DNA from: Leptospiraceae bacterium
GTDB lineage: Bacteria; Spirochaetota; Leptospiria; Leptospirales; Leptospiraceae
Length of the DNA: 36,741 nucleotides
NCBI GenBank assembly: GCA_947458405.1
Contig: CANGZW010000025.1
Coordinates: forward strand, 1 to 36,741
Reading direction: 5' to 3'
The notes below the pieces were generated by a model that was not told the origin of the DNA, made no database searches, and saw only the letters and a list, made by a program, of their open reading frames with translations. The position numbers and the translations under genes were made by a program. Positions 32,608-36,741 of the stretch are shown here, piece by piece (position 1 is the stretch's first letter; the number at the start of each line of letters is the position of its first letter).

Positions 32608-32826
32608 ATGCTTTCAGAATTTGTAAAATTAAAACGAAAGACTTTAGGGCTCACACAGGAGAGACTTTCCGAAATCAGCGGAGTAGGTATTCGTTTTATT
32701 AGAGATTTAGAGCAAAATAAAGCTACACTACGTCTCGATAAGATTAATCAAGTTTTATCTGTTTTTGGATGTTGTGTTGGTGTAGTACAGATTCCTAAAG
32801 AAATGGATGCAAATCAAATTAAATGA
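32608..32826 (+). CDS. hipB: HipB-like antitoxin, XRE-family repressor
   Basis: A 72-residue helix-turn-helix protein: LTQERLSEISGVGIRFIRDLEQNKATL is the XRE motif (quoted in part: LTQERLSEISGV, FIRDLEQNKATL), followed by a short hydrophobic dimer strand (LSVFGCCVGVV). It probably binds the two upstream repeats and represses the operon. There is no ribosome binding site. Its TGA overlaps the next ATG (ATGA). In HipBST systems HipB is the DNA-binding part while HipS neutralises the kinase. Confidence 0.88.
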   Translation: MLSEFVKLKRKTLGLTQERLSEISGVGIRFIRDLEQNKATLRLDKINQVLSVFGCCVGVVQIPKEMDANQIK

Positions 32827-33140
32827 GAAAAGGGTTGGTCTATTTTCATACGCATTTAGCAGGTGTGCTATTTGAATCAGATAAAGGATATGTATTTCAG
32901 TATGACCAAAATTATTTAGATTCTCTTCATGCAATGCCTTTAGGATTAAATTATCCTCTAAAGAGAGAACCATATTACACTAAAACTATTCCTCCTTATT
33001 TTGATGGTTTGATTCCCGAAGGTTGGCTATTAAACTATATCACGAAAAATTGGAAAATTAATCCTAGAGATAGAATGAGTCTTTTACTCAAAGTATGTAA
33101 TGACTGTATAGGTGCTGTCTCAGTCATAGAGCAGGAATAA
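32823..33140 (+). CDS. hipS: HipS-like antitoxin (HipA N-terminal domain as a separate protein)
   Basis: The 105 residues correspond to the N-terminal subdomain of HipA (GVLFESDKGYVFQYDQNYL, YFDGLIPEGWLLN, DRMSLLLKVCNDCIGAVSV). In E. coli HipA this is fused to the kinase; in tripartite HipBST it is a separate antitoxin. GAVSV at the end is the usual boundary. Overlap with hipB and a two-base gap to hipT show coupled translation. Function as antitoxin is inferred from the known HipBST family. Confidence 0.87.
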   Translation: MRKGLVYFHTHLAGVLFESDKGYVFQYDQNYLDSLHAMPLGLNYPLKREPYYTKTIPPYFDGLIPEGWLLNYITKNWKINPRDRMSLLLKVCNDCIGAVSVIEQE

Positions 33141-33142
33141 AT

Positions 33143-34084
33143 ATGAGAGTTTGTTATATATGTAATAAACTAATTAATGAATCTCAAGAAATGTATCACA
33201 AAAAATGTAGTTTGCAATTTTTTAATACATATCCTCCTCCGAGTCTAGATATAAAACAAGAACTTTTAGAAGAATATGCACAAATTCTAACAGGCCATAA
33301 GATAACAATTCCGGGAGTACAAAAAAAAATTTCTATAGCATATACTGATGATAGCTTAAAAAATTCATCACGTCTAACAGTGATCGGTCTCGGGGGTGGT
33401 TTTATATTAAAACTTCCCACAGAAGAGTTCCCTTTTTTGCCAGAGTTAGAATATGCTAGTATGCATTTAGCCAAACATTTTGAAATACAAACTGTACCTT
33501 TTGCCCTTATTCCTATGCAAACAGGCGAATTGGCATATATTACTCGAAGAATCGATCGAGATCAAAATACAAAGAAAAAAGTTCCAATGGAAGACTTTTG
33601 TCAAATTATGGAAAGATTGACCGAGGATAAATACAAGGGATCTTTAGAATCTGTTGGAAAAAGATTGAAATCTATTTCCATTTATTCTGTATTAGATGTT
33701 TATAATTTTTTTGTAGTCAATTTATTTTCATGGCTTATTGGAAATTCCGATATGCATTTAAAAAACTTTTCAATGTATTACACTATAGATGGTTACAGAC
33801 TTACTCCTCTTTATGATCTATTGGCTACTCATTTACTACTTCCAGAAGATAAAGAAGAAGTAGCTCTTACCCTAAATGGAAAAAAGGCAAATATTAATAA
33901 AAGAGATTGGTTTTTATTTGCTGAAAATATAGGTATTACAGAAAAGACAAGGATGAAACTTTGGGCAAGAGTTCAAAAAATAATTCCCACTGTTTTAGAA
34001 TCTATCTCAGAGTATCCTTTACCCACTGAGATACAAAATAAATGGAAAAAGTTAATTTCAGATAGATGGAATCTAATTCTTTAG
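33143..34084 (+). CDS. hipT: HipT-like Ser/Thr kinase toxin with N-terminal zinc finger
   Basis: The HipA-type kinase core lacks the N-terminal subdomain, which is encoded by the gene before. The Gly-rich loop is TIPGVQKKIS (55-64), ATP-binding Lys90 (FILKLP), catalytic GNSDMHLKNFS (Asp203, Asn208) and metal-binding Asp225 (PLYDLL), so the kinase looks intact. A short Zn site C4-C7-H19-C22 precedes it, as in many HipA-like proteins of other phyla. Known relatives phosphorylate aminoacyl-tRNA synthetases (GltX for HipA, TrpS for HipT). The target here is unknown. Confidence 0.9.
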   Translation: MRVCYICNKLINESQEMYHKKCSLQFFNTYPPPSLDIKQELLEEYAQILTGHKITIPGVQKKISIAYTDDSLKNSSRLTVIGLGGGFILKLPTEEFPFLPELEYASMHLAKHFEIQTVPFALIPMQTGELAYITRRIDRDQNTKKKVPMEDFCQIMERLTEDKYKGSLESVGKRLKSISIYSVLDVYNFFVVNLFSWLIGNSDMHLKNFSMYYTIDGYRLTPLYDLLATHLLLPEDKEEVALTLNGKKANINKRDWFLFAENIGITEKTRMKLWARVQKIIPTVLESISEYPLPTEIQNKWKKLISDRWNLIL

Positions 34085-34845: not shown

Positions 34846-36384
34846 ATGGATCATACAGAAATTGTAAGAACAGTTGAATGTCCCAAGTGTAGATTGAAGA
34901 ATTTGGCAGGGACGAAGTTTTGTGCGGATTGTGGTACTCCGCTTGTTTCAGGAGTTAAGATGATCTGCACAAAGTGTAGTCATGAGAATCCTCCGGGTAC
35001 TAAATTTTGTGGGAATTGTGGGGCTTCGTTTGAGCTCAATGTGGAGAGTGATCCTGACATTCATCTTTTGCAGAGGGCGTTGAAGGGGCGGTATGTCGTA
35101 CAGAAATCTCTGGGGGAAGGGGGATTTGGTCGGGTGTTTTTGGCTCTGCATGAGGGTCTTAAGCGAAAGGATGTGATCAAACTTTTAGGTGCCGATCAGA
35201 GCAGAAGCGAGGATATCAAGAGAAGATTTTTACAGGAAGCACAGGCAATTGCCAAGCTGAGTCATCCAAATATCATTGAAATCAAAGATGTGGCAGAATT
35301 TGAGGGCAGACCGTATTACATCATGTCGTACAGAGAAGGGGGAAGCCTCGAAGATCTTTTACAAAAAGAAAAGAAACTCTCCCCCGAACGGGCAATCGAA
35401 CTCTGCAAAGGCATTCTCTCGGCACTCTCCGAGATACACGCAAAGGGCATCATCCACAGAGACATCAAGCCCGACAATGTTTTAATCGGAGACAAAGGAG
35501 AAGCAATCCTCATAGACTTTGGAATTGCTAGAGTGGAGGAGGATTCCACACTCAAGCCCAAGACGGGCACGGGTATGACAATTGGTACAGTGACCTACAT
35601 GAGCCCTGAACAATTGGAAGGTAAGTCCATCGATAGCCGCTCTGATCTCTATTCTACAGGGATACTCCTCTATGAACTCCTTGTGGGCGAACCTCCCTTT
35701 CAGGGCTCACTCCCATCGCTCATTTTAAAACACACCACGGAAGAAGTTCCGGGTATTACCGACAAACTGAACAACCATAAGTTTGCTCCCAATCTGGAAT
35801 ATGTGATCAAAAAAGCCTGTGAAAAGAAGGCAGAAGATCGATTTGGAAACGCTCTGGAGATGCGGGATGCGTTTGGATTGGAGACTACGGAGATTCCCGT
35901 AGAACAAAAACAGAATCAGAAACCAAACTCGGAAGTGAGTGACAAAAATATTAAGGACAACGCTCAGAATCTTGGGACGATTATTAAGGAAGAGTTCCCA
36001 TTTTTAACGAAATTATACTATCTTATTAGTGGGAAATTTATAAAACTCCCAATATACGGGAGGATTTTGGTTATCATATTTTCCTTATTTATAGGTAACA
36101 AATTTTATGGGATTTTCAAACCTTGGGGTCCCTATATGGGGCAAACAAGTTGGGGATATGCAAACATGAGGTGCTGGATGCTTGGTATGAGATTGCCGTC
36201 AAAAGATGAATTAAAAGACGCATATAACAATGGAGAAACAGAATCATGGCAAAAAGATACCAAAGATTACTGGTCTTCTACCCCGTATGGCTCGGAGGGG
36301 CTCTACTTTTTCAATGTCTACAATGGTAAATCCTACTACGTCATATTTAATATCTATGACTACGGTGTACGTTGTCATCGTTAG
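34846..36384 (+). CDS. Transmembrane Ser/Thr kinase with two zinc ribbons and a DUF1566 (C-type-lectin-like) domain
   Basis: Residues 12-29 and 41-58 are two CxxC-x10-CxxC zinc ribbons. Residues ~83-343 form a Hanks-type kinase: GEGGFGRV loop, Lys112, HRDIKPDN (Asp206), DFG (224-226), MSPEQLEG and DLYSTGILLYELL. All catalytic residues are present. A Gln/Asn-rich linker and a transmembrane segment (~403-423, ILVIIFSLFIG) follow. The end is a compact DUF1566 domain (WGYANMRCWMLGMRLPSKDEL, then YWSST and GVRCHR at the stop). The domain order suggests a receptor kinase with the C-terminal domain outside the cytoplasm. DUF1566 folds like formylglycine-generating enzyme and is a frequent target domain of diversity-generating retroelements. 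Bases favour G over C until about 35345 and C over G after it, hinting at a mosaic gene. Confidence 0.9.
   Translation: MDHTEIVRTVECPKCRLKNLAGTKFCADCGTPLVSGVKMICTKCSHENPPGTKFCGNCGASFELNVESDPDIHLLQRALKGRYVVQKSLGEGGFGRVFLALHEGLKRKDVIKLLGADQSRSEDIKRRFLQEAQAIAKLSHPNIIEIKDVAEFEGRPYYIMSYREGGSLEDLLQKEKKLSPERAIELCKGILSALSEIHAKGIIHRDIKPDNVLIGDKGEAILIDFGIARVEEDSTLKPKTGTGMTIGTVTYMSPEQLEGKSIDSRSDLYSTGILLYELLVGEPPFQGSLPSLILKHTTEEVPGITDKLNNHKFAPNLEYVIKKACEKKAEDRFGNALEMRDAFGLETTEIPVEQKQNQKPNSEVSDKNIKDNAQNLGTIIKEEFPFLTKLYYLISGKFIKLPIYGRILVIIFSLFIGNKFYGIFKPWGPYMGQTSWGYANMRCWMLGMRLPSKDELKDAYNNGETESWQKDTKDYWSSTPYGSEGLYFFNVYNGKSYYVIFNIYDYGVRCHR
36283..36384 (+). other. Candidate variable region of a diversity-generating retroelement
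   Basis: The last 33 codons of the kinase gene after YWSST are nearly all of the form NNY at surface positions (TAT, GGC, CTC, TAC, TTC, GTC, TCC, ATC, GAC and so on), as expected if AAY codons of a template were randomised at adenines. The constant end GVRCHR and a C/G-rich stretch right after the stop (TAGTCCCCCCCGGG) fit the usual layout. No template copy or reverse transcriptase is in the window, so this stays a candidate. Confidence 0.35.
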
Positions 36385-36442
36385 TCCCCCCCGGGTGTTT
36401 CCCATTGCACTTGACCTTCCCCCGTCTGTCCCATTGGTTTGG

Positions 36443-36494
36443 CGTCTCGATACAAATTTTGCAAGGGGATGCAAAATTCACTCGACGACCGTAC
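36443..36494 (+). repeat. REP-like palindromic element 1
   Basis: The order is CG, TCTCGATACA, a 9-bp stem (36455-36463 with 36470-36478, loop AGGGGA), then ACTCGA, CG and ACCG. The TCGA pair and CG/CG form an outer stem with a bulged TC. ACTTTTTTG follows ACCGT. Confidence 0.75.
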
Positions 36495-36574
36495 TTTTTT
36501 GTATAGAGGTGATTGAGAGAGATGCTGTTAATAAAGTGATTTATACGTAGTATGTTTAGCTAAACAAAAAAGTT

Positions 36575-36693: not shown

Positions 36694-36741
36694 GGCATCT
36701 CGATACATCCGCGAGAAGATGCGGATACTCGATGACCGTAC
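36694..36741 (+). repeat. REP-like palindromic element 3, at the window end
   Basis: The order is CA, TCTCGATACA, a 6-bp stem ATCCGC (36707-36712) with GCGGAT (36721-36726), then ACTCGA, TG and ACCGTAC. The window ends within or just after it. Confidence 0.7.

Follow-up and report, generated by a model that had tools for sequence, protein, structure and literature searches.

The DNA analysed in the current work (referred to as the window) is a stretch of 36,741 nucleotides from a Leptospiraceae bacterium, which represents an entire contig (C25) of the genome assembly. Close to its 3' end the window contains a gene encoding a receptor-like Ser/Thr kinase, the features of which are listed in Table 1. 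The contig ends at position 36741, being 357 bases past this gene, which limits the downstream view. Directly upstream of the kinase gene, at positions 32823-34084, a HipA-like protein is split in two adjacent ORFs, one corresponding to the HipA N-terminal domain and the other to HipA_C.

Table 1 Features of the kinase gene, its 3' flank and the retroelements of two class relatives (DGR, diversity-generating retroelement; RT, reverse transcriptase; TR, template repeat)
Feature	Position	Strand	Basis or remark
Receptor-like Ser/Thr kinase gene, 512 aa: zinc ribbons, kinase, membrane segment, Lcl_C/DUF1566 domain	34846..36384	+	ORF, Pfam
Double zinc ribbon (CPKC, CADC, CTKC, CGNC)	34879..35019	+	Pfam Zn_Ribbon_1 42 bits, DZR 38 bits; motif positions
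Protein kinase domain	35092..35847	+	Pfam Pkinase 180.8 bits, residues 83-334
Kinase motifs HRDIKPDN; DFG	35455-35478; 35515	+	Sequence
Predicted membrane segment, residues ~398-417	36037..36096	+	Hydropathy
C-type-lectin-like Lcl_C/DUF1566 domain	36130..36381	+	Alignment, PDB profile matches including TvpA 2y3c, Pfam
Variable-region-like stretch; amino-acid changes relative to C55b mostly at codon positions 1/2, with most third bases retained	36259..36366	+	Paralog comparison
Constant 3' codons GTA CGT TGT CAT CGT TAG (VRCHR stop), same in C55b except for one base	36367..36384	+	Sequence comparison
C-rich block spanning the stop codon and beyond, possible IMH-like target determinant	36380..36435	+	98% identical (56 bp) to C55:24043-24098
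Hairpin left arm CCCCCGTCTGTCCC	36419..36432	+	Hairpin complete in C55, C84, C12; right arm lost in window
9-bp hairpin AATTTTGCA/TGCAAAATT, part of dispersed hairpin repeat	36455..36478	+	Sequence
DGR (RT + adjacent TR), two class relatives	L264:1827-1950 and L262:1378-1499		Targets: dispersed FGE-type genes

Architecture and 3' flank of the kinase gene

The initial annotation had described a protein in which zinc ribbons are fused to an intact Ser/Thr kinase, followed by a membrane segment and a DUF1566 domain; this architecture was confirmed by Pfam, motif inspection, hydropathy and alignment. The kinase motifs GEGGFG, VIK, HRDIKPDN, DFG and SPE are all intact, while a hydropathy scan of the 512-aa protein revealed a single hydrophobic segment (maximum Kyte-Doolittle mean of 2.03). 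The protein displays the catalytic motifs, the membrane segment and the extracytoplasmic domain of a Hanks-type Ser/Thr receptor kinase, with a membrane orientation that is predicted. When the whole protein was used in a single scan of genome contigs, the matches obtained were generic kinases only.

The C-terminal domain scored below the Pfam cut-off of 34.9 for Lcl_C/DUF1566 (12.5 bits within the full protein and 16.8 bits when used alone). In an alignment of this domain and 12 homologs, Lcl_C was matched by 12 of the 13 sequences, and the residues A21, C25, LP 32-33, E37, W58, V90 and C92 are common to them. A profile of the domain compared to the PDB retrieved the Treponema denticola variable protein 1, C-type lectins and formylglycine-generating enzymes, with E values from 0.0005 to 1. 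An AlphaFold model of the isolated domain reached a mean pLDDT of 50 and was set aside as a query for fold searching. The gene ends at this C-type-lectin-type domain and the variable-region-like stretch is located near its 3' end, which is the arrangement of a DGR target. As previously noted for the final 33 codons, these are rich in NNY (26/33, being 79%), above all 446 other 33-codon windows of the kinase gene. The caution that the codon argument is weak by itself is upheld, since the DUF1566 ends of some relatives without an RT likewise reach 0.7-0.8 NNY; NNY content was consequently rejected as sufficient evidence for a DGR variable region.

The constant VRCHR end and the adjoining C/G-rich stretch are both present as annotated. 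A block at C12:39584-39646 (L199:5585-5647) is 94% similar to the C-rich block of the window, and no lectin gene is found there. This copy of the 3' flank of the DUF1566 gene includes its last bases ATCGTTAG, is located downstream of a probable toxin-antitoxin pair and is possibly the remnant of a lost target gene. In contig C55 the shared block is followed by the hairpin CCCCCGTCTGTCCC/GGGCAGATGGGGG, versions of which occur in C84 and C12, and in the window another repeat starts where the right arm of this hairpin is lost. In two genes of group I (see below) a hairpin directly follows the stop codon.

The 9-bp hairpin noted downstream of the kinase gene does exist, as part of a dispersed repeat of the general form CGATAC-hairpin-ACTCGAYGACCG, which occurs in the window at 36448-36491 and 36700-36741. 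Its interpretation as a DGR cruciform was set aside, since the dispersed repeat also adjoins Rpn-like genes. The stems of this repeat vary with compensating changes (ATCCGC/GCGGAT, TTCCGC/GCGGAA, GCCACTA/TAGTGGC, AATTTTGCA/TGCAAAATT and AAATTTCTGTC/GACAGAAATTT). The 3' flank of the window gave 27 matches, many of them next to Rpn/PD-(D/E)XK-like genes and at contig ends, and copies of the repeat are present in L199, L201, L203-L206, L210, L211, L214 and L215.

Codon-position bias among dispersed lectin genes

Searches for FGE-sulfatase domains and for proteins related to the kinase retrieved dispersed C-type-lectin genes of the same genome, which fall into two clearly supported and two weaker groups. 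Besides the window gene, at least nine of these carry the mutation pattern of a variable region. Group I consists of C147a (a kinase fusion), C141 and C47, all of which end in GFRLARTP, and group II of C144, C145, C30, C147b and C116, ending in GFRLVLLP or close variants. Group III contains the window gene and C55b only, whereas C12, C46, C44 and C127, with FGE-like ends and RPLR/RPVY termini, are kept as a possible group IV due to indels and weak statistics.

The comparison of C147a and C47 identified 10, 9 and 0 differences at codon positions 1, 2 and 3, respectively, in 28 variable codons, versus 14, 15 and 39 upstream (Fisher p 2.1e-6). For C144 and C116 the corresponding counts are 14, 8 and 2 in the variable codons, thus placing 22 of the 24 differences at positions 1 or 2, versus 1, 5 and 9 upstream (p 8.7e-4); the bodies of these two genes differ at 15/240 sites (~94% identical) and their variable stretches at 24/84 (29%; p 5e-7). 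The amino-acid-changing codons of group I retain their third base in 14/14, 11/12 and 10/11 cases, compared to 7/23, 8/26 and 4/19 upstream, and the third bases of the variable regions show 0-2 differences. Conditioned on the amino acids, this retention goes far beyond what codon usage predicts in most pairs of groups I and II, the exceptions being C30/C147b and C30/C116. Adenine occupies 3/59 and 2/38 of the invariant variable-region columns in groups I and II, versus 63/217 (29%) and 96/298 (32%) upstream. The bias toward positions 1 and 2, together with invariant columns poor in adenine, is the pattern expected from mutation at template adenines and not from selection acting on ordinary mutations or from cassette shuffling. 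This linkage to adenine is deduced from comparisons between paralogs. Some C/T differences at position 3 in group II point to drift or to several templates.

For the window gene and C55b, the differences at codon positions 1, 2 and 3 amount to 18, 11 and 7 within 36259-36366, versus 10, 10 and 13 upstream (Fisher p 0.06 for positions 1/2 against position 3). Third positions differ in 7/35 codons of the variable region and in 13/28 upstream (p 0.03, falling to 0.01 for the best gap). Amino-acid-changing codons kept the third base in 17 out of 22 cases within the variable stretch (6.4 expected, p 5e-5) and in 6 out of 13 cases upstream of it (3.3 expected, p 0.07). Because this retention owes partly to common ancestry, the case is moderate and not decisive, and its statistics are weaker than those of groups I and II. 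Judged from paralogs, the pattern is strong in groups I and II and moderate in group III. The two genes also differ by a one-codon indel within the variable stretch, which counts against a DGR origin, as such an indel should not occur among copies of one template.

Side by side with these comparisons it was observed that the N-terminal 400 aa of C12, C46 and C127 are nearly identical and their FGE-like C-termini very different, lengths included, and that C127 carries a DUF1566 domain added after the FGE-like one.

Search for a reverse transcriptase and a template

The initial annotation had called for a template-like copy of the variable region and a DGR-type RT in the genome, and neither of them was found in the assembly of 3.94 Mb (198 contigs, 96.5% complete). 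RVT_1 (PF00078) gave no match in this assembly, nor did a DGR-type RT profile, built from three RTs with the IGNxxSQ motif, at E<=10. The same profile gave no confident match in seven other genomes of the family, the E values in one of these being 0.016 and 0.1. The RTs that occur in the same order (G011, G014 and G022) were discarded as DGR RTs, since they contain QG instead of SQ, as in group II introns, and a weak RT match in G003 was not DGR-like either. DNA queries of the four groups against the assembly returned no non-coding TR-like copy, the matches being the ends of coding genes, the flank in C12 and short chance matches. For the variable region of the window, these were C55 (75% identity), a 24-base copy of the 3' end at C12 and short chance matches. 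The two components of a complete DGR, being an RT of the DGR clade and a non-coding template repeat of ~100 bp, are thus both missing from the assembly as searched. The smallest listed contig (C194) measures 3,203 bp, and contigs below ~3 kb were probably outside the searched set, so that a small contig carrying RT and TR may have escaped. Searches of phage, plasmid and IMG/VR sequences with the window domain or the constant 3' ends gave no matches.

Three other genomes (G033, G042 and G053) were matched by the DGR-type RT profile. In the two class relatives G033 and G042 the RTs carry IGNQTSQ, and each is adjoined by a template of 122-124 bases with AAC runs, which matches FGE genes of both genomes at 71-88%. 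In G033, the 34 adenines of the TR account for 12 and 17 mismatches and its remaining 90 bases for 3 and 4; the contrast is weaker in G042 (12-21 versus 8-15 mismatches). The detection of these complete DGRs demonstrates that the searches for RT and TR work, and a TR present in the assembly would probably have been found by the same search. The codon-position test applied to the variable regions of G033 and G042 gave p values of 0.04-0.25, weaker than those of groups I and II, so that these two groups seem to match the DGR pattern no less well than targets whose template is known. The variable regions of these relatives are of the FGE type and mostly end in GFRPVRRP, and their TR and target sequences differ from those of the genome studied here. 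A brief literature search found no paper describing the DGRs of these two relatives, and a search for DGRs together with Leptospira returned no paper with Leptospira as its subject by title.

Origin of the variable end and known systems

Considering these results, the window gene probably carries a DGR-type variable region, as an orphan (remote) target that is or was diversified in trans. Of the earlier proposal that its lectin end is diversified by a retroelement, the variable-region-like pattern relative to C55b stands, as does the occurrence of further such lectin genes, at least one of which is fused to a kinase; the RT and the template that it involves were not recovered from the assembly. 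The protein would be a membrane-anchored Ser/Thr kinase with a cytoplasmic kinase end and a C-type-lectin-like sensor presumably outside the inner membrane. The last ~36 codons before VRCHR would constitute the variable region, in which adenine-specific mutagenic retrohoming from a template copy may have altered codons, mostly of the NNY form, at their first and second positions, with no change in scaffold, third bases or 3' end. RT and template would act, or would have acted, in trans, being encoded on sequence missing from the assembly or having been lost, and variable ligand binding could then set which signal drives the kinase. A DGR variable region in this domain would mean that a hypervariable sensor is coupled across the membrane to a kinase, and diversification would alter the input of a pathway and not the adhesion of a surface protein. 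Against this explanation are the lack of RT and TR in the assembly, the family genomes without DGR RTs and the lost arm of the downstream hairpin.

A broader reading, which is conceivable and rather doubtful, is that the genome contains at least ten remote, retroelement-diversified receptors on FGE and DUF1566 scaffolds, membrane kinases included, with several template families and one small or separate RT/TR locus acting in trans. If true, this would represent a repertoire of rewritable signalling receptors.

A realistic possibility, which we hold with some reservation, is that these genes are fossil targets, rewritten by a past DGR whose RT and TR have since been lost, so that the window gene would now encode a normal kinase whose variable end no longer changes. 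This is a sub-case of the explanation of an orphan target given above, and the confidence attached to the different readings therefore does not add up to one. The absence of RT and TR from a 96.5% complete assembly, some third-position drift in group II and the lost right arm of the window hairpin agree with such a history, as do Treponema denticola isolates without RT or TR that keep 2-6 leftover target genes (PMC4891356). In contrast, the ~94% identical bodies and 29% different variable regions of C144 and C116, and the 0-2 third-base differences in group I, indicate that diversification is recent relative to divergence, while a small RT/TR cassette between repeats could sit on one of the contigs below ~3 kb.

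It is unlikely that the window gene and C55b are ordinary paralogs which share their 3' end by duplication or gene conversion, the variable stretch being a fast-evolving, NNY-rich DUF1566 loop. The NNY-rich ends of relatives without an RT, the one-codon indel, the restriction of group III to two close members and the near-identical 3' block in C12 without a lectin gene are all in line with this alternative, which does not account for third bases being kept in 17/22 changed codons where silent sites upstream diverge normally, nor for the parallel and much stronger signatures of groups I and II in the same genome. Cassette shuffling without a retroelement, in which lectin ends would be transferred from one scaffold to another by recombination and the dispersed hairpin repeats, is very improbable: it fits the variable-hairpin repeats downstream of several lectin genes and at contig ends and the near-identical N-termini with very different C-termini of C12, C46 and C127, yet it leaves changes confined to positions 1 and 2, constant third bases and adenine-poor invariant columns unexplained, and the same repeats adjoin genes without a lectin domain.

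Orphan DGR targets are already known from Treponema denticola, as are kinase targets from cyanobacteria. The Treponema denticola TvpA family (PMC4891356, PDB 2y3c), TvpA being among the best PDB profile matches of the window domain, similarly carries its variable regions in C-terminal domains of the C-type-lectin/FGE type, encoded at scattered sites of the genome; unlike in that species, the targets here form several groups that differ in their 3' ends, and they include a DUF1566-type end as well as a membrane kinase fusion. Among the multidomain DGR targets of cyanobacteria, the commonest are kinases joined to a C-type-lectin variable domain (PMC7517822). As in the window gene, the Ser/Thr kinase of these targets is N-terminal and the C-type-lectin variable domain C-terminal, and remote targets are numerous. 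The cyanobacterial kinase targets are mostly predicted to be cytosolic and are tied to a known RT/TR, whereas the window gene encodes zinc ribbons and a membrane segment together with a lectin of the DUF1566 type, and its RT/TR was not found. In human microbiomes, according to the part of the survey drawn on here (PMC4159848), DUF1566 and FGE-sulfatase are the two commonest DGR target domains, with a C-terminal DUF1566/Lcl_C that holds the variable region as in the window gene, and that part reports no kinase fusion for the DUF1566 targets. What sets the present case apart is a kinase that combines zinc ribbons and a membrane anchor with a variable end of the DUF1566 type, in an orphan set made up of several groups. 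A genome in which about ten targets are supported and an RT/TR is not seen would be a clean case for asking if DGR targets persist after the loss of their retroelement or depend on a missing one that acts in trans.

C169 and C1 encode additional membrane kinases that end in an FGE-sulfatase or DUF1566 domain. The codons of these ends do not look variable, so that the fusion of a kinase to a lectin-like end also exists without the signature of a variable region.
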